From positions 116,497 to 180,496 of the forward strand of contig JWKQ01000002.1 of assembly GCA_000806115.1 (NCBI GenBank): a stretch of 64,000 nucleotides of DNA, written 5' to 3'. The notes under the pieces were generated by a model. The model was not told the origin of the DNA. It saw nothing but the letters and a program-made list of their open reading frames with translations, and searched no databases. The DNA is from an archaeon GW2011_AR5 (lineage in GTDB: Archaea > Aenigmatarchaeota > Aenigmatarchaeia > GW2011-AR5). Position 1 is the first letter of the stretch. Every line of letters starts with the position of its first letter. This document shows positions 4,947-58,776 of this stretch, piece after piece. A program made the translations under genes and the position numbers.

Positions 4947-5285
4947 GTGAATGATGTGTTTGGAGGAAAGCCCGACCCGAAAAAAGTTGAGCAGATAATG
5001 AAGAAGCTCAACATGAAGGTGCAGCAGATAGAAGCCGAGGAGGTTGTAATCAGGACAAAGGATAAGGACATAATAATATCCCGTCCCGAGATAATGCTCG
5101 CCGACATGATGGGGCGCGAGGTTTATCAGGTGTCAGGCGAGGTGTCGGAACGCATCCTTGTCAACGAAGATGACGTGAGGATGGTAATGGACAAGACTGG
5201 AAAGGACAGGGACACCGTCGTGAAGAAGCTGGAAGAACTTGACAACGACCTTGCGAAGGCAATCATGGAACTTAAGGAGAAATAA
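4947..5285 (+). CDS. nac: Nascent polypeptide-associated complex protein (alpha-NAC)
   Basis: NAC domain followed by UBA-like C-terminus ('DVRMVMDKTGKDRDTVVKKLEELDNDLAKAIMEL'); GTG start. Confidence 0.9.
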   Translation: MNDVFGGKPDPKKVEQIMKKLNMKVQQIEAEEVVIRTKDKDIIISRPEIMLADMMGREVYQVSGEVSERILVNEDDVRMVMDKTGKDRDTVVKKLEELDNDLAKAIMELKEK

Positions 5286-5373
5286 ATAAAAATAATAACG
5301 AAGATAAGTCTTAAGGAACCTGGTTTCTTTTTGGGTTCACAAAGACTTTTTCTTTGTAAGAAAAAGGATTTGT

Positions 5374-5589
5374 ATGGCAAAGATTAGCAGTAATAAATCG
5401 CTTTCAGCAGCGCTTTTCCTGATAGGGCTTGTAATGCTGATAGAATCGGCATCGACGATTTTTGTGCTTGTCGAGGCGCCGAGCGTGGCGGCAAGTTCCG
5501 TAGGCGTCGCATGGGCTTACGTCATGATAAAGGGGCTTGTAAGCCTCTACGTTCTTTTCACCGGATTCAGGATGCTCAGAACTAAATAG
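5374..5589 (+). CDS. Small two-TM membrane protein
   Basis: 71 aa hydrophobic ORF. Confidence 0.55.
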   Translation: MAKISSNKSLSAALFLIGLVMLIESASTIFVLVEAPSVAASSVGVAWAYVMIKGLVSLYVLFTGFRMLRTK

Positions 5590-5609
5590 ATTGTGTTCAC
5601 AGTTTTCTA

Positions 5610-6266
5610 ATGCAGCTTGAGACTCAGATAGACGTTCTTGAAACGCCCCTGTCTGTAATTTCCATGCTGGAAGAGATTTCTTCTTCGTCAGGCGTCTCTG
5701 AGTTTGAATTTGTTGGTTATGTACCAGGAAGCGAGTACGATTTCACAACAATAGTTGGAACTGCGACTTTAGGGTTCGAAGCCGTGCGCAAAATAGGTGC
5801 GGACAAAATTGGGCGTTACATTATCGGAACGGTATATGTCAATACTGATGACGGTGAAGATTTGCTTGGGAGGCTGGCGGTCGGACTTTCTTCGAGGACG
5901 CCTGCCGGGCATCTTCCGCAAATAGACTTTTGTTGCCGGCGGGAAGATGTAGAACTTGTCTATGATTTTTTAAGGGAATTGAATCTCGATGGCTATGTTC
6001 TGTTTTCCGGACGGTCGTATCATTTTCAAGGTTCGAAACCAGTGGAAGAGTCCGGATGGCAGGAGTTTATGCGGAACCTGGGAGAAGATTGCAGCATAGT
6101 GGATTTCGACTGGCAAAGTGAATGTATGGAAAACGGCTATTCCGTCCTGCGTATAACGGACGCCCAGAACAAACCGTACGTTCCGGAAGTTGTTGCTAAG
6201 GTATCAAGAACATTGAAGTACGAAGGGCAAATGAGCCTGCCTTTCGAATTGAATCAGCCGATATAG
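5610..6266 (+). CDS. Hypothetical protein
   Basis: 218 aa ORF with coding-like composition. Confidence 0.6.
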   Translation: MQLETQIDVLETPLSVISMLEEISSSSGVSEFEFVGYVPGSEYDFTTIVGTATLGFEAVRKIGADKIGRYIIGTVYVNTDDGEDLLGRLAVGLSSRTPAGHLPQIDFCCRREDVELVYDFLRELNLDGYVLFSGRSYHFQGSKPVEESGWQEFMRNLGEDCSIVDFDWQSECMENGYSVLRITDAQNKPYVPEVVAKVSRTLKYEGQMSLPFELNQPI

Positions 6267-6457
6267 TTCTCGTCCCCGTCGGGAGCGGTCTCCTGCTGGA
6301 GCTGGACATCCTGTTCCGCCGCCATCTCCGCCTTCTTGCTTCTGCGCTTCCTTTCGTCCACGGGTCCTATGTACTTGCTCGTGACCTTTTTGCCCCTTCT
6401 GATTGACTCGTAATAATATTTCCTTCCGTTTATCGTCTTGACGTGCCTGTTAGCCAT
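6254..6457 (-). CDS. Small basic hypothetical protein
   Basis: 67 aa ORF 'MANRHVKTINGRKYYYESIRRGKKVTSKYIGPV'. Confidence 0.55.
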   Translation of the reverse strand: MANRHVKTINGRKYYYESIRRGKKVTSKYIGPVDERKRRSKKAEMAAEQDVQLQQETAPDGDENYIG

Positions 6458-6593
6458 TTTGGAAACACCTGATGAATTACAGTTTTCGAAAGAAGTATCC
6501 GTTAGGAGTACTTCATGACTGTAAATTTAATTTTGGCACTATATAAATTTTTGGCTTGTGTAGAAGCGTAATTTGAAAAATTTTCCGGAAAAC

Positions 6594-9272
6594 TCAGTTA
6601 ACCGTGACCTTGTTGCTTGTGGAGCCCTGGTAGCTTATCAGTATTTCCCCGCCGCACTCGCACACCCCGTTGAGCGGCATCCTTCTGTAGCTCTTCTTGC
6701 ACTTCTTGCAGACAAACTCTTCCCACCCCTGAAGCGGCTTGTTGTAATCGACTTCTATTGTATGCTTCAGCGTTCTCTTGGCGCCGCTCATTATGTCGCC
6801 AAGTGACGTCTGCCTTCCGGTGCCGAATATCTCGCTCTTCTGTATGCCGACAGACGCGAATATGCGTTCTATAGGCGGAAACAGCTGGCTCTGGATGTAG
6901 TAGTCCGGGTCTATCTGTATCTTGTTCTGCTCGGCGTATTTGGGGTCTTCCGCCCGCTTCGAGAGCATCTGGTCGCCTTTTATGATGACAAAGCCGAGAC
7001 GATCGCCGACCTTTGGAGGGTCCTGCGGGTTGCGCGCGGAGAGCTTCCTCGCCAGTTCTATGTGGGGCAGCATGCCCTCGTAGCTCTCTATGCTTTTAGT
7101 TATTCCTTTTATTATCGTAAGCTTCTCCATTGGTATTTTTCCCGATTTCAGGTCGTTGATGGTGCCTTTCACCACTTCTATAGCCTTTGCCAGGTCTCCT
7201 TCCTTGAGAACTATGTTGAGAACGTTGAGCATCAGCTCGCTCACAAGCGGACACCAGTCGCGCCTCACCGTCTCTATCCCCCTCATCTGGAGTTCGTCGT
7301 GCCAGCCGTCGTCCGTTTTCTCGAATTTCCATCCGGCGTAGCGTTTTTTCGTAAGAATCAGGAACGTCCTGTATATCTTCTCGAACTCCAGCTCAAGATA
7401 CCCCGGGAGCCTGTCAGTGATGAACTTGGATATGTTCTCGCCTATCTCCCTGGCTTCGTCAAGGTTCGTGGTTTTTGTTTTGACAAATATGGAGTCCGTG
7501 TCGCCGTAAACAACCTCGACCGGAAAGTTCTCTTCCACCAGCTTCCTTGTTTTCTCGATATTCTTCCTGCCGTAGGCGGTGATGGTGCTCGCGACATCTA
7601 TCGTGTAGAGCCTCGCCCGTATGTAGCCGGTGTACCCGTACATCGAATTCGCGATGTCCTTTAGCGCGAGCTGTTTTGCGTTGAGAGTCCTCTTCTCCTC
7701 GCCTTTTGTCGTTTTCATTTTTTTCTTCGCTTCGCTACGGGCTGCCAGCACGCCCGTCACGATTCGCGGGAGCAGCCCCTCCCTTACGCTGGTGTCGACA
7801 AAATACGCCCCTGATGGCGACTGGTGGATTGCAGTCTGCTTTTCTCCATTGGTGTCTGTTGTGAGTGTGTCGGGAGATACGTTGTACGTTCTCATGATGG
7901 ACGGGTACAGGCTCTTGAAATCCAGTACAAGGACGCACCCCTCCGCATGAAGCCCTTTCTTTGGTTCCAGAACTATGGCGCCCTTAAGCTCGGATTTTTC
8001 CCGTTCCTTGGTCCGTCTTACTATTTCAGCCTTTGACGGCGAGAGCGGCATGACGAAATTAAGCTTCTTGAACTCGTGCAGCATCATCGTGTCTATTCTC
8101 CGGGTCTGCCCGCCCATGACGTCCTGGAGCAGCAGCCCGGATATTTTTGCGAGCTCGATGAATTTGTCAAGCATGCCCTTGTCTACCAGCAGCCTCATCG
8201 AAAGGTCGGAGTCCTTCCTGCAGTACTCTATGAACCTCGCAAGCCCGTCCCTGCCGCCGTTCCACAGTCCGCTCATTTCGCCGTATTCTATATCATGCTT
8301 CTGTTCGTTGAGCATCAGCTTTGACACCGTGTTCAGGTCGTACCTGTGAAACTTCACCCACGGATCCCGCTTGAGTATCTGGTAAGGGTCGGCAACTGTC
8401 CGTCCTGTAAGGACGTATTCCTGGGTGATTCCAAGTGTTCTTGAGAACGCAGTCTTGTCCGTCCTCCCAAGATTCTGCTGTAGCTTGTTCTGGCGGAGCC
8501 GCTCGACAAGGTACGGGAAGTCGAATGCGTTGACGTTGTAGCCTGTCATGATGTCGGGGTCGTAGGCGTCTATTATCTTCAGGAACTCCTCCAGCATTTC
8601 CTTCTCGCTTGCGAAACCGAGTATCCCGTCGCCGCTGAAGGGTTTTGCAACCAGCACTATGTCCTTCTTCCCCCTGTAGCTCGGGAGGAACGAGCATGAA
8701 ATCATCACTATCGGGTCTTTTTTCGCATCAAGGGGCTTGCGCGGGTCCGACGGCACGCACTCGATGTCAAATGCCAGGTAGTTAAGCGGCACATTCTCGA
8801 TCTTGTCCATGGGCTTGATTGAATTCGCCCTGAAAGCGGCTATCTTGGAAACGCTGGTGTTCACGCGCTCCGCATCAGCCTCCACCCACTGCATGCCGTG
8901 TATGCCGTAGTCAACCATGAACCTGTACTTGAACAGTATGTCCGCCTCGAACGCCTCTTCTATCTGCTTGTTCGCGAGCAGCTGGTCCTTCAGCTTTGGG
9001 ACGTCCTGCGGGTTGATGAGTGTTATCTTGTAAAGAAGCGACGGCTCGGGGGAGTAGCCTATTGTAGTGAATTTTTCTACTTCCTCCACCTTTATGGCGT
9101 TGATTCCGGACAGTTTCTTCGGGTCCGCGCACTTTACGTAGAAATACGGCTGGAACTTGTCATAGAAGACGCAAACAGACTTCCCGTTCTCCCCGCGCCC
9201 GAAAAGCCGCAGCACCGGCTTGTTGCCGTTGAGAAAATAATCTGCGTCGAGAAGCTGGAACTGCACAATCAT
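6594..9272 (-). CDS. polB: DNA polymerase family B with 3'-5' exonuclease and C-terminal DP2-like zinc ribbon
   Basis: Exo motifs FDIEC, NAFDFPYL, YCRKD; polymerase motifs DFKSLYPSIM, NSMYGYTG, YGDTDS; C-terminus FVCKKCKKSYRRMPLNGVCECGGE. Confidence 0.95.
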   Translation of the reverse strand: MIVQFQLLDADYFLNGNKPVLRLFGRGENGKSVCVFYDKFQPYFYVKCADPKKLSGINAIKVEEVEKFTTIGYSPEPSLLYKITLINPQDVPKLKDQLLANKQIEEAFEADILFKYRFMVDYGIHGMQWVEADAERVNTSVSKIAAFRANSIKPMDKIENVPLNYLAFDIECVPSDPRKPLDAKKDPIVMISCSFLPSYRGKKDIVLVAKPFSGDGILGFASEKEMLEEFLKIIDAYDPDIMTGYNVNAFDFPYLVERLRQNKLQQNLGRTDKTAFSRTLGITQEYVLTGRTVADPYQILKRDPWVKFHRYDLNTVSKLMLNEQKHDIEYGEMSGLWNGGRDGLARFIEYCRKDSDLSMRLLVDKGMLDKFIELAKISGLLLQDVMGGQTRRIDTMMLHEFKKLNFVMPLSPSKAEIVRRTKEREKSELKGAIVLEPKKGLHAEGCVLVLDFKSLYPSIMRTYNVSPDTLTTDTNGEKQTAIHQSPSGAYFVDTSVREGLLPRIVTGVLAARSEAKKKMKTTKGEEKRTLNAKQLALKDIANSMYGYTGYIRARLYTIDVASTITAYGRKNIEKTRKLVEENFPVEVVYGDTDSIFVKTKTTNLDEAREIGENISKFITDRLPGYLELEFEKIYRTFLILTKKRYAGWKFEKTDDGWHDELQMRGIETVRRDWCPLVSELMLNVLNIVLKEGDLAKAIEVVKGTINDLKSGKIPMEKLTIIKGITKSIESYEGMLPHIELARKLSARNPQDPPKVGDRLGFVIIKGDQMLSKRAEDPKYAEQNKIQIDPDYYIQSQLFPPIERIFASVGIQKSEIFGTGRQTSLGDIMSGAKRTLKHTIEVDYNKPLQGWEEFVCKKCKKSYRRMPLNGVCECGGEILISYQGSTSNKVTVN

Positions 9273-9389
9273 TCAACCACACCAAATAATAATTTCTTGA
9301 TTAACATTCTTTTTTAAAGAAGGTTAACGCTATCATTATGAAAAAATACTATTAATATGAATCCGTGAAATCCCTGTTTAAGTCTTATA

Positions 9390-9607
9390 GTGAACCCACA
9401 AAAGAATCTCGACGTACATTGTGGGTTCACAGATACAAGGAGAATCTTCTATTCTCCTGTACAGGTGAAGTAAAGTTTCACCTTGTAGCTCACAAGGAAG
9501 GAAGTAATACATATCCAGATTGTTTCCTTGTAGAGCTATAACATTCCACCCATCTTCAGATGATGCTACAAGAAGAGTTTTGCTCTTCCTTGTATATGTG
9601 GAATGTT
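9390..9607. repeat. Multi-hairpin intergenic element (five consecutive stem-loops)
   Basis: GTGAACCCAC(9390-9399)/GTGGGTTCAC(9421-9430); ACAAGGAGAAT/ATTCTCCTGT; ACAGGTGAA/TTCACCTTGT; TAGCTCACAAGGAA/TTTCCTTGTAGAGCTA; ACATTCCAC/GTGGAATGT. Confidence 0.75.
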
Positions 9608-9680
9608 GGACGTAAAAACACTGCGATTATATCAGTGGACTTTTACAACAAAGACATCATTGCCTTCGGGCAGTGGTTTT

Positions 9681-10781
9681 TCACGAAATGCTTATTTTTT
9701 CAACGTCCCTGGTTGCGAAATTCGCCACGACCGGCGTGAAAGTCCCGAGAAGCGAGCCGCTGTTTATTATCGTAGTGGACTTGTAGTTGCTTATGAACGG
9801 CGTGTCGCCGTGTCCGGTATGCATGATGTCCGGCATCTCGTCCAGCACGAGGTAATCCTCATCCAGTATCGCGCTTGACCTGCCCAGGTACCTCTTCTTC
9901 AGGAAAGTTGTATTGCCTTTGTGTATCATCAGCACTTTCAATCCTCCAAGCTCCACAATTGCCGGATTGCTAAGCGAAACTATCTTATTTGACTCAAACT
10001 TCAGAGGCGTTTGCGGGTATTCGTTGCCTGCGGCTATTACAAAAACAGTCTTGATGTAGCAGTAGCGTTCCACATATCTCTCGAAAAGTTCCTTGTCGCC
10101 AAGGTCGCCTGCTACGAGCAAGTAAGGTATGTCCTGCTGGGAGAACCATTCGAAGAAGCGCTCGGCATCCTTTGTGGAAGCCTCGTCAAGCCTGAAATCG
10201 GAGACGAAGCACGCCTTGCCTGTGCCGAGAGTCGGCTGGCGGAGCGGCATGTCCGGATAGATTATCTTCTTGCCGAAGAGCACTTTTCCGCCTGCCAGCG
10301 CCCTTATCGCAACCACATCGTCAAGCTCGACATCGGCGTCGAAGTCCGCGGCCTCGAATATTACTGGAACGGACCCTGTTGGGTCTTCTATGTCAACCAC
10401 CTTTTTCCCGTCCTTTTCCTTGATTTCCTTGACTATGCCAAGAACGTGCACTTCGCTTCTGCTCATGTCTATCTTGTTCAGCGACACGAAATCCTTTGGT
10501 ATCCTTGACAGTATCACGCTCTTCATCTTCTCATATTTCGAGTTGTAGAATCTGACGAAGTCGTCGCTTGTAATCTCTGTTTTCTTGTGTGTGAGGTTCC
10601 GGAGGATGCTGAACGGACGCCGAAGGTCGCCCGGCTCGACTACTAGGGGAAGGTTTTGCGGCGGCTCGGAATGTGAAGCGTCCGTCTGCGCTTCTTCTAT
10701 CAGCTTGATGGCGTCCTCAGTGAGCAGGTGCCCTTTCTTGAAGAACTCGGCTACTATCTGTTCGCGTGACATGGTAATCAT
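9681..10781 (-). CDS. DNA polymerase D small subunit (DP1)-like, OB fold plus calcineurin-like fold
   Basis: OB segment 'VHVLGIVKEIKEKDGKKVVDIEDPTGSVPVIF' followed by 'CFVSDFRLD', 'VAGDLGD', 'AAGNEYPQ', 'HTGHGD'. Confidence 0.85.
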   Translation of the reverse strand: MITMSREQIVAEFFKKGHLLTEDAIKLIEEAQTDASHSEPPQNLPLVVEPGDLRRPFSILRNLTHKKTEITSDDFVRFYNSKYEKMKSVILSRIPKDFVSLNKIDMSRSEVHVLGIVKEIKEKDGKKVVDIEDPTGSVPVIFEAADFDADVELDDVVAIRALAGGKVLFGKKIIYPDMPLRQPTLGTGKACFVSDFRLDEASTKDAERFFEWFSQQDIPYLLVAGDLGDKELFERYVERYCYIKTVFVIAAGNEYPQTPLKFESNKIVSLSNPAIVELGGLKVLMIHKGNTTFLKKRYLGRSSAILDEDYLVLDEMPDIMHTGHGDTPFISNYKSTTIINSGSLLGTFTPVVANFATRDVEKISIS

Positions 10782-10807
10782 AAATAATACGATATTTTTG
10801 CCAAAAA

Positions 10808-12058
10808 CTACCCAAAGCGTTCCTGGAGCAGCGTCTTGATTTTTGCCAGCGGCTCTTCCTTCACTGCCAGCGATATGTCACGTGTTCTTCCATACCGTCC
10901 CTTCGAGATTACTTTCGCGGTGATTATGCCGAGCATGTCGAGTTCGCCTATCAAATCGCTGATTCTTCGCTGTGTCAGCGGCTTCATCCCGCCCGCCTTG
11001 CAAACCGCCAGGTAATTGTCGAACACATCGCCGGTCAGGAGGCGTTTGTCCGTCCAGGCTTTTTGATTGTCCGCCTTTTCCTGGCACTTTATTATTGAGT
11101 AGAGCACCGCCTGCGACTGGCTTGGCTGGCCCCTTACTGTTTCCGTTACCCTGTCCATGTCAAGTTTCTGCTGCGCCATGTCTATGTGATTTTCAGCTAT
11201 TGAAGGCTCGCCTGCCCGTTCTGCGAGCTCGCCCGCCACGCGCAGAAGGTCAAGCGCTCTCCTTGCGTCCCCGTGCTCCTGCGCTGCCAGCGCGGCGCAT
11301 TTGCCAAGCACAGTGTCGCTGACAACGCCGGGCCTGAAGCCGCCGTCGGCGCGCTCCATCAGAATATCGCGCAGCTGCACGGCATTGTAAGGCTTGAACA
11401 GTATCTCCTCCTCGGAGAGCGATGATTTTACCCTCAGGTCCAGATTGTCCCTGAAAGAGAGGTCGTTTGTTATTCCTATTATGGTTATGTGGCTCCTCTT
11501 GAGCTCCTGGTTTATCCTTGTCAGGTTGTAAAGGAAATCGTCGCCGACTTTTTTCACCAGCGCGTCAATCTCGTCCAGGATTATTATAAGGGTCGACGGC
11601 TTGCTGTCCACCCTCTCGAAGAAGCGCCTGTAAAGGACGTCTGTGGGCAGTCCGGTGTCGGGCACGCACTCTCCCATCTCCTTGAGGAGCTGCGCAAACA
11701 GCCTGTATTCCGTGTCCGCCACTTTCTTCATCTTGCAGTTTATGTACACCGACCGGAGGCTTTTCCCGGACTGTTTTATGATTTCCTGGAGGTGTGAAAT
11801 GATGAATTTTGTGCATATAGTCTTCCCGGTCCCGCAGGTTCCGTAAACGAATATGTTGTTGGGATGGTACCCCTTCAAAGCGGGGGCGAGAATCGAGCCC
11901 ATCTGGTTGAGTTCGGCATCCCTGTGGGAAATTTTCTGGGGTATGAAGGATGATGAAAGCGTCTTTTTGTCGTTGAAAATATCTTCCTGTTCTATATACT
12001 TGGCAAAGATGTTATACGAAACATTAGTAGATACCAACACGCTGAAACCACCACCCAA
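10808..12058 (-). CDS. orc1: Orc1/Cdc6 replication initiator
   Basis: 'ALKGYHPNNIFVYGTCGTGKT' Walker A, 'LIIILDEIDAL' Walker B, C-terminal winged helix. Confidence 0.93.
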   Translation of the reverse strand: MGGGFSVLVSTNVSYNIFAKYIEQEDIFNDKKTLSSSFIPQKISHRDAELNQMGSILAPALKGYHPNNIFVYGTCGTGKTICTKFIISHLQEIIKQSGKSLRSVYINCKMKKVADTEYRLFAQLLKEMGECVPDTGLPTDVLYRRFFERVDSKPSTLIIILDEIDALVKKVGDDFLYNLTRINQELKRSHITIIGITNDLSFRDNLDLRVKSSLSEEEILFKPYNAVQLRDILMERADGGFRPGVVSDTVLGKCAALAAQEHGDARRALDLLRVAGELAERAGEPSIAENHIDMAQQKLDMDRVTETVRGQPSQSQAVLYSIIKCQEKADNQKAWTDKRLLTGDVFDNYLAVCKAGGMKPLTQRRISDLIGELDMLGIITAKVISKGRYGRTRDISLAVKEEPLAKIKTLLQERFG

Positions 12059-12170
12059 AGCTGCCTGAAAAACAAATTACTCAATAAAGGCTTAACCATC
12101 ATTTCATTTGGAGAGTATATAAACGTTCTTGATTTTCAAAATATGTTTTCAGTATTCTACTTTCGCAACC

Positions 12171-12312
12171 AACAAACACCCCTGCGTTTCTCATGGAACT
12201 CGCCTGTACTGCATTTCTCTTCTATAAGACTGTTATAGGAAATAGAGGTATGTTTTTCTATAAAAATTTCTAAAATTTTTATTTATTCAAAGGAAATAGA
12301 GGGGTTGTACCA
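12171..12312. promoter_or_regulatory. Candidate replication origin (ORB-like repeats flanking AT-rich tract)
   Basis: GGAAATAGAGGTATGTT (12238), GGAAATAGAGGGGTTGT (12292) and inverted GAGAAACGCAGGGGTGTT (12171-12192, minus) beside orc1, with an AT-rich tract at about 12253-12290. Confidence 0.45.
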
Positions 12313-12341
12313 GATTAACTATTGGTAAAACCTGGAACAGA

Positions 12342-13979
12342 TTAGAAATAAAGATTTCTGGCGTACTCGTTTACCATTCGGTGTGTGTTGAACGTTGCTC
12401 CGGTTTGGATTGCCCCTACTGACATGGCGTTCTCAGTACCAAAACCTTCTATTATGGAATACAGCCCGCCGGAGTCGGTATCATCATCCGAAAATTCCGA
12501 CCCAACCATCCACCCGTTCCTTCCATTGAAACCTTCCACCCACCAACCATCCATTGTTCCAGCCTGCGGCACGCCGTTCATGGCAGCGCACATCCCGCTT
12601 GTGCCCGACGCCTCCAGCGGGACCCGCGGGGTATTCAGCCAGATGTCGCTGCCTGCCGTAAGATGCCTGCATGTTTCCATGTTATAGTTGGGAACAAAGG
12701 CGGTATTTATTCCGGCGCCTTTCAACTCTCCGAGGTGCCATACCACCCTGGATATCTCATCCTTTGCGGCTGTGTTGTTCGGGTGTGCCTTGCCGGCGTA
12801 AAGCAGCTGCGCGCCGCTTCTTTCCAGAACAGCCCGCAGTCTGTTCATGTCATGGAAAAGCAGCAGGGGTCTTTTATAGGAAGACAGCCTGCCTTCGTGT
12901 GAGTATGAACCGTCAAACCGCCTTGCCCATGTAATGACGGGGCGCGAGGGATCAATATGAATTCCGTGTACTTCTCGGAGGTAGCGCGCAGCCTCCGTTT
13001 TGGATTCATTTCTCGCCGCGGCTATTTTTGTGCCGTCAACGTCTCCGGCACGCGAAAGAATTGACGGGTCGTCTCTCCACCCAGGAAGCTCCTCGTCATA
13101 AAGTCGCCTGAACGCATCTGACGCCCATGTAGCATGGTGGACGCCGTTTGTCACGTAGCCGATGTTCCTGCCGAACATCCTGCTGGAAACCTGGCCGTGT
13201 TTTCTGGAAACGGCATTGGTGCGCGAACTCCCGTTCAGCGCCAGCTGCGTCATATTCAGGTAGTTGCAGCCGGCAAGTTCGTGTATGTTGTTGGGCATGG
13301 TTCCGTTAAAAACCTGATGAATTAGCGCATAATCAAAGCCGTCATGGCCCGCCACGGGGGAATGTGTAGTAAATATCGTATTTTCCCTCACCTTTGCGAC
13401 GTCGCCGCACCTTTTGAGCCGCTCAGCCACGGCAAATGCGGCGTGTCCTTCGTTGAGGTGGAATTTTGTTGCGTCGTAGCCGACAGCCTCAAGCATCCTG
13501 GTGCCGCCTATTCCAAGTACAGCTTCCTGAACCAGCCTTTCATAAACCCCGCCTGAATACAGCCTTAGTGTTATTTTTCTGTCCCACTCGGAATTGGAAC
13601 ACCCGCTAATTTCGCTCGTGTCAAGCAGGTAGACAGGCACGGTGCGTCCCCGTCCGCGGACATCGTAACGCCACGCCCCGATTTCTACCTCCCGGTCGTG
13701 CAACGCCATCCGCACCTTTTCCCTCTGCAGGACAAGACCTTTGTCTGCGGGGCACCATCTCGGATAATGTTCATGCTGGCGCCCGTCAGAAATGCTTTGT
13801 GTGAAGTAGCCTTCGGGGTACAACAGAGACACGGCGGCGAAGTTATAGGGGAACCGTTCAAAATTCATGTCGGCAACCGAACGTACTGTGTCGCCAGCAA
13901 GCGCCCCCAAGCCGCCTGAGTATGTCGGAATATCGTCTTTTAGACCGATTTCTGCAGTGAAGTATGCCACACTGTCCAT
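12342..13979 (-). CDS. glgP: Alpha-glucan (glycogen/maltodextrin) phosphorylase, GT35
   Basis: 'AYFTAEIGLKDDIPTYSGGLGALAGD', 'FHLNEGHAAF', 'EASGTSGMCAAMNGV'. Confidence 0.9.
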   Translation of the reverse strand: MDSVAYFTAEIGLKDDIPTYSGGLGALAGDTVRSVADMNFERFPYNFAAVSLLYPEGYFTQSISDGRQHEHYPRWCPADKGLVLQREKVRMALHDREVEIGAWRYDVRGRGRTVPVYLLDTSEISGCSNSEWDRKITLRLYSGGVYERLVQEAVLGIGGTRMLEAVGYDATKFHLNEGHAAFAVAERLKRCGDVAKVRENTIFTTHSPVAGHDGFDYALIHQVFNGTMPNNIHELAGCNYLNMTQLALNGSSRTNAVSRKHGQVSSRMFGRNIGYVTNGVHHATWASDAFRRLYDEELPGWRDDPSILSRAGDVDGTKIAAARNESKTEAARYLREVHGIHIDPSRPVITWARRFDGSYSHEGRLSSYKRPLLLFHDMNRLRAVLERSGAQLLYAGKAHPNNTAAKDEISRVVWHLGELKGAGINTAFVPNYNMETCRHLTAGSDIWLNTPRVPLEASGTSGMCAAMNGVPQAGTMDGWWVEGFNGRNGWMVGSEFSDDDTDSGGLYSIIEGFGTENAMSVGAIQTGATFNTHRMVNEYARNLYF

Positions 13980-55836: not shown

Positions 55837-58662
55837 TTATTCCAAAAACAGCCCGAACCTGTTGGGTGTAGAAGATTTCGCTTTCGGGTTTTCCGTGTTG
55901 TCGGAGTCTACAACCTCTATTTTACACCCTGTTTCTTTTTCCAGAAAGCTGCTAACTTCTTTTAGCAACGCAAACTGTCTGCTCCGCGGCAGCACAGGCT
56001 GCATGTCGTTTATCCTTTTGTAAAGGTTCTGTATGAACATTACGGTTGCCTTGCCGTAGCTTCCGGAGGACATTATTTCCTTGGTTATGTCGTTTATGTT
56101 TGCCGTTTTGTTTCTGAGTACCTTCTGGTACACCCTGAATTTCCAGTCCTCGGCCACGAAGAGGCTGATTTTTTTCGGCTGCATTTTGGCTATGCGCCTG
56201 ACTTCTTCGATGTCGTTGAGCGTATTTTTTATCAAAAGTTCGCCGGATTCCGCATCTGCGCTTGTTTTGTTGCTGTCCGGGACGGGCCAAGGAGCTGTCG
56301 AAACGTAGTTCTTCTTCATCATGTGGTAGAGTTCTTCGCAGATGTGGGGTGCAAAAGGCGCCAGCATTTTTATTACATTTTCAAGATAATCCTTCAGGAC
56401 TTTTTTGTTGGCGTTCTTCATGTTGCCGACGCGGCGCAAATACCACTTCAGGTCGTTGGTGGCGTCGAATAATGCGCACTGCACCGCGCTTCTGAACATG
56501 AGCTGTTCGCAGAAGTCAGTGGATTTCTCGACGCATGCCTGAAGCCTGCTTATCAGGTAAAGTTCCGAATTATCAATGCCGGATTTCCTGCATTTTTTCA
56601 GGCTTTCTGCAGTCTCAAACAGCAGTTCGAAGCGGCTCCTGTAGCTGCGTATACTTTCTGTCCTCCAGTCGGCATCGTCTATTCCTTCGCTTGATGCCGC
56701 GATGTTTATCCTCACCATGTCAGCCCCGTGCTTGCTGATAAGGTCTTTCAGCGGTATTATGTTTCCCCTGCTCTTGGACATCTTCTCGCCCTCGACGTTG
56801 ACAAATCCGTTGACGCTGATAGCCTTCGGCCATTTGGACTCCGGGAAAAGCGCAACATGTTGATAGATGAAGAATGTGAGATGGTTCTGTACCAGGTCCT
56901 TGCCGCTGTTCCTGATATCGAGAGGGTAGAAATAATCGAATTCTTTCTCCATTTCCTTGAGCAAAGAAGACCTGATTTTTGATTTTGCAGACAAAGATTT
57001 TATGTCTCCCTTTCCGAGAAAAACGAAGTCGAACACGTCATCGGTCAGTTTGCTGTCAAGCTTGTTCTTCGTTATGATATGCGAGATTGTATAATAAGCC
57101 ATGTATATTGTGCTGTCTGAAAGCGTCTCAATTATCCATTCCTTGTCCCACGGCATTGGAGTGCCTAGTCCCGACTTTCTCGCGCAAGCCTTATCCTTGA
57201 GCCATTCAAGCGTGTTTTCAAAATTATTTCTTGCCTCTTCCGGATATATCTTCATCCTTGAAAGGCATTTCGACACTTTCTTCTTCCACTCTTCGTCCGA
57301 GTATTTCAAGAACCACTGGTTTTCAAGAATCTTGACGTGGCATTTGGTTGTGCAGCGGCATACTACACTGCCTGTCAGTTCATACATTATGTCCGCTATT
57401 TTTTTCTCCATGAAATCCAGAATAAGCTTCTCTTTTGAATCGCTCACTTTCATTCCTGAATAGGGACCGGTGTTGATAACGCCTGTGTGGAACTCTTTTT
57501 TGTAGAGTTGCGAGGTTGCCTCATCGAGCTTATCCGACTGCTTCAGACTTGTTATACCCATTTTATTGCACAGTTCTACTGCAGGCAATTCTCCCGCGCC
57601 TTCCGACTTGACGACCTGTATCGGTTCGAGATTGTTCTTCTGCAAGCCGTATGTCTGCAGTTCGCCGCTGTCAGCTAGATCTTTTATTGCAATCCAGTCA
57701 TAAGGCGCATGGGCAGGCACGCTCATCACGATACCCGTACCGTTATCCGGGTCCACGAAAGCCGATGGCAGTATAGGAATTTCCCTGTTGTCCAGCGGCT
57801 CAATGCACTTCTTGCCTATAATTCCCTTTATGTCAAAGCTTCCTACGACTTCGGAGTTTTTGATCTGGTCTTTGAGTTTCTTCGCCGCGTCCTTGCTCAC
57901 TATCCAGCGCTCGTTATTTGCTTTCAGTTCCACGTATTCCGCATCAGAAACCCATATGTTTGTCACTCCCCACAATGTTTCAGGACGAAGTGTGGCAGCC
58001 GGGATTATGTAGCCGTTATAAGAAAATTTTATCAGCGTAAATTCCTGAGGACTCTCTCCCTCGCCTTCGAGCCTGTCATGATCACCCGTTGGACTCATGT
58101 CTTTGGGACACCAGATTACAGGATGAGTCCCCTGAACAACATACCCTTTCTTCTTTAGTGAATTGTACTGCCACTCTACGAACCGCGAGAAGCCGGATGT
58201 CAGTGAGAGGGTGAATTTGCGCCGCCAGTCAATGGAAAATCCCGCAAGCTTTGCGCTCTCCTCGATTTTCTCCGCCCAGAATTGCGCGACATATTTCGGG
58301 CCCTTTTTCTTGAAATTTTCTATGTCGCGCCCTGTGGCGCCGAAAAGTTTAAAGGTGGATATCTGGCTTTCGTCCCCGCTTTTCAGCCGCTCGATTGCAC
58401 CAAGAATCGGCTCCCCTGTTGCGTGGAAGCCCTGGGCGAGCAGAACATTGTACTGTTGCATCCTCTTGAACCGCGCGTACGCATCCGTGCGCGTAAATGT
58501 GTATGAATGCCCGACGTGCCAGTTGCCGTTTACGTAGGGGATTACCATGGACGTGAAAAATTTCTTGCGTGCTGACGGATTCGCTTCGAACAGCTTTGCC
58601 GCCGTCCATTTCTTCTGCCATTTTTTATCAAGTGCGGTAAAATCAATATCACTCATAAGCAA
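55837..58662 (-). CDS. leuS: Leucyl-tRNA synthetase
   Basis: 'PYVNGNWHVGHSYTFTRTDAYARFKRMQQYNVLLAQGFHATGEPI', 'EKMSKSRGNIIPL'. Confidence 0.96.
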   Translation of the reverse strand: MLMSDIDFTALDKKWQKKWTAAKLFEANPSARKKFFTSMVIPYVNGNWHVGHSYTFTRTDAYARFKRMQQYNVLLAQGFHATGEPILGAIERLKSGDESQISTFKLFGATGRDIENFKKKGPKYVAQFWAEKIEESAKLAGFSIDWRRKFTLSLTSGFSRFVEWQYNSLKKKGYVVQGTHPVIWCPKDMSPTGDHDRLEGEGESPQEFTLIKFSYNGYIIPAATLRPETLWGVTNIWVSDAEYVELKANNERWIVSKDAAKKLKDQIKNSEVVGSFDIKGIIGKKCIEPLDNREIPILPSAFVDPDNGTGIVMSVPAHAPYDWIAIKDLADSGELQTYGLQKNNLEPIQVVKSEGAGELPAVELCNKMGITSLKQSDKLDEATSQLYKKEFHTGVINTGPYSGMKVSDSKEKLILDFMEKKIADIMYELTGSVVCRCTTKCHVKILENQWFLKYSDEEWKKKVSKCLSRMKIYPEEARNNFENTLEWLKDKACARKSGLGTPMPWDKEWIIETLSDSTIYMAYYTISHIITKNKLDSKLTDDVFDFVFLGKGDIKSLSAKSKIRSSLLKEMEKEFDYFYPLDIRNSGKDLVQNHLTFFIYQHVALFPESKWPKAISVNGFVNVEGEKMSKSRGNIIPLKDLISKHGADMVRINIAASSEGIDDADWRTESIRSYRSRFELLFETAESLKKCRKSGIDNSELYLISRLQACVEKSTDFCEQLMFRSAVQCALFDATNDLKWYLRRVGNMKNANKKVLKDYLENVIKMLAPFAPHICEELYHMMKKNYVSTAPWPVPDSNKTSADAESGELLIKNTLNDIEEVRRIAKMQPKKISLFVAEDWKFRVYQKVLRNKTANINDITKEIMSSGSYGKATVMFIQNLYKRINDMQPVLPRSRQFALLKEVSSFLEKETGCKIEVVDSDNTENPKAKSSTPNRFGLFLE

Positions 58663-58682
58663 TCCTTGACATCTATGTTTTT

Positions 58683-58776
58683 ATAGTGAACCCAGAAAAC
58701 AGGCTCGATATGAATTCTGAGTTCACATATAGTTCCCAAGGAAAATAATACCCAAAATGTTTCCTTGGAGAACTAT
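58683..58776. repeat. Paired-hairpin element, copy D (upstream of leuS)
   Basis: GTGAACCCAGAA/TTCTGAGTTCAC then ATAGTTC.CCAAGGAAA/TTTCCTTGGAGAACTAT. Confidence 0.7.

Follow-up and report, generated by a model that had tools for sequence, protein, structure and literature searches.

The stretch of DNA analyzed here, which we call the window, comprises 64,000 nucleotides of an Aenigmatarchaeota genome assembly of 858 kb (3 contigs, 87.6% complete), and a replication gene cluster lies on its minus strand. The first gene of the cluster encodes a cdc6/orc1 initiator (10808-12058; Cdc6_lid 1.8e-25, Cdc6_C 2.8e-25) and is followed by the gene for a DP1-like protein of 366 aa (9681-10781), a homologue of the PolD small subunit and of B-subunits that was recognized by sequence and fold matches in the PDB, and then, after a spacer of 408 nt (9273-9680), by the gene for a family-B DNA polymerase of 892 aa (6594-9272) that Pfam shows to carry its own 3'-5' exonuclease domain. 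A sequence-only reading of this DNA had placed a DP1-like gene and a zinc-tailed polB side by side on one strand, and both genes proved to be real and to lie where that reading had put them. The two genes share a reading frame within the window, so that a read-through product would span about 1394 aa.

Conserved gene order and a lineage-specific spacer

The order of these genes is widely conserved. Of 50 DP1 loci outside the family that we designate f11, 46 have cdc6 as the immediate upstream neighbor of DP1 and 36 have PolB as the immediate downstream neighbor, in many cases with an overlap between the genes; PolB does not adjoin DP1 in the other 14, some of which are contig or locus ends. 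In Pyrococcus, the clustered genes run cdc6-DP1-DP2 (PMC2643942, PMC10989965), so that the PolB of the cdc6-DP1-PolB cluster occupies the position that DP2 holds there. Near the 3' end of polB and convergent with it, a small protein on the plus strand (5610-6266) matches the archaeo-eukaryotic primase 1D-like family PF24387 at 4e-12. A related assembly (G002) contains two versions of the DP1-PolB locus on separate contigs (C39 and C60; L039 and L040), one of them near-identical to the window, which may reflect a strain mixture (contamination 5%).

The length of the spacer is specific to this lineage, as the corresponding gap in relatives mostly ranges from -25 to +230 nt, often an overlap and much shorter than the 408 nt of the window. 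The earlier description of a structured spacer of about 400 nt was correct in length and in folding propensity (z -8.8), and most of that structure belongs to a copy of an interspersed four-hairpin repeat (9377-9544, minus strand). A BLAST search with the spacer returned 65 matches on both strands of its own genome, the best copies aligning over spacer positions 137-304, approximately, at 77-86% identity. The repeat consists of consecutive hairpins bounded by TATAG...CTATA and varies among copies: some retain the outer two hairpins only, in two (L147, L157) the first hairpin holds a further two within its loop, and L150-L154 contain the middle pair by itself. By eye, the stems appear to differ between copies in paired changes. 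A partial copy lies near 58661-58731 of the window, other copies were collected as L131-L157, and the repeat occurs in 19 of 30 genomes searched, this one included, and in several genomes of the order. Rfam returned nothing credible for window positions 5000-13000. Since the structure is mostly that of a genome-wide repeat, the spacer is probably not an element specific to polB, and it is no evidence for a PolB-DP1 complex.

The polymerase core and its C-terminal tail

The polymerase matches Pfam DNA_pol_B at 2e-116 and the exonuclease domain at 2e-33, is the single PolB match in its genome, and has its nearest named counterpart in a locus of Candidatus Aenigmatarchaeota (96% across residues 1-892). 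The exonuclease and polymerase residues D169/E171, N246, D251, Y350, D354, D451, K538/N542/Y545 and D591/D593 are invariant in 15 relatives, and the protein therefore probably both polymerizes and proofreads. In a PDB sequence search, human Pol delta ranked first (1.4e-111), with the Pyrococcus-type B3 polymerase just behind (2.5e-107); a single-chain structure model reached a pTM of 0.29 and was set aside. Open frames of 1317-1400 aa for PolB in several relatives (L118, L119, L120, L121, L091) are probably enlarged by inteins. Toward the C-terminus lies the PIP-like box QTSLGDIM (residues 821-828; 6789-6812, minus strand), a probable PCNA-binding motif judging by its sequence, whose Q821 is invariant in the same 15 relatives.

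The protein continues beyond this box into a tail (residues 849-892; 6597-6728, minus strand) that contains Cys 855, 858, 871 and 873 and a KxRRxP-type motif, so that a single CxxC...CxC motif, which presumably binds zinc, lies some 20 residues beyond the PIP box. A profile built from 35 such tails found residues 1128-1162 of the PolD subunit DP2, the Zn-III module, as its best match in the PDB (E 3e-11), the next unrelated match being adenylate kinase at 1e-3; the DP2-like tail that had been claimed from the sequence is thus borne out. In the P. abyssi PolD structure, Zn-III of DP2 occupies the groove that the OB domain of DP1 forms with the phosphoesterase (PDE) domain (PMC6355029), and DP2 helices outside Zn-III, which the PolB tail lacks, also touch DP1 (PMC6355029). 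The affinity of a Zn-III peptide of 20 residues for P. horikoshii DP1 is in the nanomolar range (PMC6355029), so that Zn-III on its own, as in this tail, could suffice to hold DP1.

A decayed DP1 and the distribution of DP2

By sequence, the DP1-like protein matches the small subunits of archaeal PolD best among PDB entries (E 7e-10). A structure model computed from four sequences (mean pLDDT 67.8, pTM 0.52) matched the fold of DP1 at 6e-18, followed by the B-subunits of Pol epsilon (3e-14), Pol delta (4e-13), Pol zeta and Pol alpha. Compared with a DP2-bearing relative, the protein retains four of the eight catalytic residues of its nuclease site and has lost the GNHD motif, which fits the earlier description of a degenerate B-subunit: the nuclease site is inactivated, and the fold, as modeled, appears to be kept. 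All four f11 DP1s that were read retain eight of eight catalytic residues; the 50 non-f11 DP1s retain 0-7, the full Asn-His pair of GNHD survives in none of them, and the order to which the window belongs is intermediate in this decay, other families being nearly or wholly without catalytic residues. In Thermococcales the N-terminal domain of DP1 binds Gins51 (PMC10989965); by analogy, the N-terminal domain retained here may hold the polymerase at the helicase. One DP1 (L117, in G048) is interrupted at its GD motif by several hundred additional residues, probably an intein.

The sequence-only reading had raised the question of whether dp2 is encoded elsewhere in the genome, and none was found. 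The DP2_N model (PF03833) had no match in the 87.6% complete genome and was positive in three control genomes, and across 31 genomes of the order a polC/DP2 model gave nothing above its cut-off and no full-length DP2. Its sub-threshold matches fall almost all at model positions of about 1011-1079 and correspond, in the window's own genome, to the PolB tail. DP2-like matches past the PolB stop codon were noticed in a few genomes and were rejected as a candidate, the window having no open DP2-like frame after the stop. The genome thus appears to have lost DP2, the usual archaeal replicative polymerase core.

A similar pattern extends over the phylum. Among 156 sampled genomes, incomplete as the window's own is, DP2_N was found in 10, all of family f11, and was absent from 146, with positive controls working. 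The tail profile matched in 139; after removal of the 11 f11 genomes and of three with weak matches only, 125 genomes outside f11 hold strong tail matches (E at or below 6e-8), which with few exceptions lie at the end of a frame of PolB size, and DP2 occurs in none of the 125. In the DP2-bearing f11 genomes, the strong tail-profile match lies inside a DP2 of about 1100 aa, and those f11 PolBs that were read have no tail and terminate at the PIP box; an f11 PolB searched against the PDB as a B3 control was clearly B3-type, with Thermococcales B3 as its best match (1e-157). As the DP2-bearing genomes all belong to one family, this mutual exclusivity may reflect a single evolutionary event and not many. 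Some genomes have DP1 with neither a tailed PolB nor DP2 detected, among them one that is 91% complete and encodes a B3-type PolB (G147).

A predicted two-subunit polymerase and its relatives

We consider it very probable, on the sequence evidence above, that the products of the two genes form a family-B polymerase holoenzyme of two subunits, in which the PolB tail is docked on an inactive DP1. This reading is supported by the absence of DP2, by the homology of the tail to the DP1-binding segment of DP2, by a DP1 that is inactive with its fold retained, and by the co-occurrence and adjacency of the two genes across the phylum. PolB would supply polymerization and proofreading; the zinc tail, which follows the PIP box after a short linker, would represent the piece of the lost DP2 that docks on DP1 and would fit into the OB/PDE groove of DP1; and DP1, its nuclease no longer needed, would persist as a scaffold whose N-terminal domain may link the polymerase to the helicase. 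We infer the binding of PolB to DP1, the tethering to the helicase and the role as chromosomal replicase.

Other explanations account for parts of these observations. The tail might instead contact DNA or PCNA, with DP1 kept for GINS or Cdc6 and no PolB-DP1 complex formed. Zn-III also contributes to DNA binding in PolD, near the nascent duplex (PMC6355029), a link between DP1 and Cdc6 is presumed for euryarchaea (PMC2643942), and DP1 is adjoined by cdc6 more often than by PolB (46 against 36 of the 50 loci). A general DNA-binding role, however, would predict a tail on the f11 PolBs as well, and those that were read, from genomes that keep DP2 and an active DP1, lack it; moreover, the segment conserved in the tail is the one that docks on DP1, and we regard this explanation as unlikely. 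It is less likely still, and in our view highly improbable, that DP1 is a functionless, decaying relic kept by its position in the cluster: several families do retain only 0-2 of the 8 catalytic residues and a shortened phosphoesterase domain, yet DP1 was detected in 142 of the 156 genomes, its frames are open, and in an alignment across divergent families the N-terminal region, the OB region and such residues as P176, R297 and K334 persist. That DP2 is present and was missed, with a normal PolD working beside PolB, could draw on the incompleteness of the window's genome, but its absence across the phylum with positive controls, the lack of a full-length DP2 throughout the order and the decay of the DP1 catalytic residues make such an oversight barely credible. 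We therefore retain the holoenzyme of PolB and inactive DP1 as the preferred reading.

The sequence-only reading knew of no description of such an arrangement, which is nevertheless not new; it was published as a B6-aenigma1 PolB accompanied by an inactivated DP1 in Aenigmarchaeota (PMC7544198). Kazlauskas et al. reported in 2020 that B6-aenigma1 PolBs carry one DP2-zfIII-like motif and that DP2 is missing from most sequenced Aenigmarchaeota, where DP1 is inactivated, and they proposed that this PolB replaced DP2 (PMC7544198). In the literature searched, we found neither a later treatment of the arrangement nor a bench test of it. Operons and gene neighborhoods are absent from the main text of that study, and what is added here beyond it is the phylum-wide exclusivity, the gene order, the position of the tail past the PIP box and the tail-less viral sister PolBs.

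These viral PolBs bear on the origin of the polymerase core. In our tree the tailed PolBs group in a single clade (99/99), separate from the B3-type PolBs (100/100), and the sister of the tailed clade is a viral group without a tail (L158-L160). Four IMG/VR contigs of 44-76 kb (L158, L159, L160, L161) encode PolBs about 36% identical to that of the window and lacking the zinc tail, with no DP1 within 3 kb of them. An apparently tail-less B6 polymerase in one genome (L122, in G060) was ruled out as a real loss, because it lies at a contig end. The 2020 proposal derives the core from a mobile element and has it acquire Zn-III afterwards (PMC7544198), with which our tree is tentatively consistent within the limits set by its rooting and its lack of eukaryotic sequences. 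A further step, which we offer as doubtful speculation, would make the tailed PolB-DP1 pair the main replicase of most Aenigmatarchaeota, related to the ancestor of the Pol alpha/delta/epsilon holoenzymes by common descent and not by convergence, with the tail-less viral PolBs marking the source of the core.

The origin of the eukaryotic replicative polymerases is thought to lie in the replacement of the DP2 core by a family-B core, with the DP2 tail and an inactivated DP1 kept, and Aenigmatarchaeota appear to have made the same core swap. One phylum thus holds a before-state (f11, with DP2 and active DP1), an after-state and intermediate stages of DP1 decay, which renders the replacement testable with small, expressible proteins.

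Among known systems, B6-aenigma1 is the closest, sharing the phylum, a single DP2-zfIII-like C-terminal motif, the absence of DP2 and an inactivated DP1; the window's PolB also appears to fall outside B3 and to be Delta-related, by the clade split and by Pol delta standing slightly ahead of B3 in the PDB, an indirect assignment, as the tree includes no published B6 or eukaryotic sequences. Heimdallarchaeal B10 is likewise an archaeal PolB with a metal-binding C-terminus that co-occurs with an unusual DP1, but its C-terminal domain does not cluster with those of DP2 or B6 (PMC7544198). With archaeal PolD the cluster shares a DP1 homologue, the Zn-III docking module and an upstream cdc6 as in Pyrococcus, and it differs in having no RNA-polymerase-like DP2 core, in the loss of the DP1 nuclease site and in proofreading that would be expected from PolB. 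Compared with eukaryotic Pol alpha, delta, epsilon and zeta, it has one zinc motif instead of two, a linker too short for the helical bundle and a separate lineage; it resembles them, as far as homology indicates, in a family-B core, a zinc C-terminal domain and an inactive OB/PDE partner. The layout of the window, a PolB with a DP2 docking tail beside a nuclease-less DP1, is that of the human replicative polymerases.
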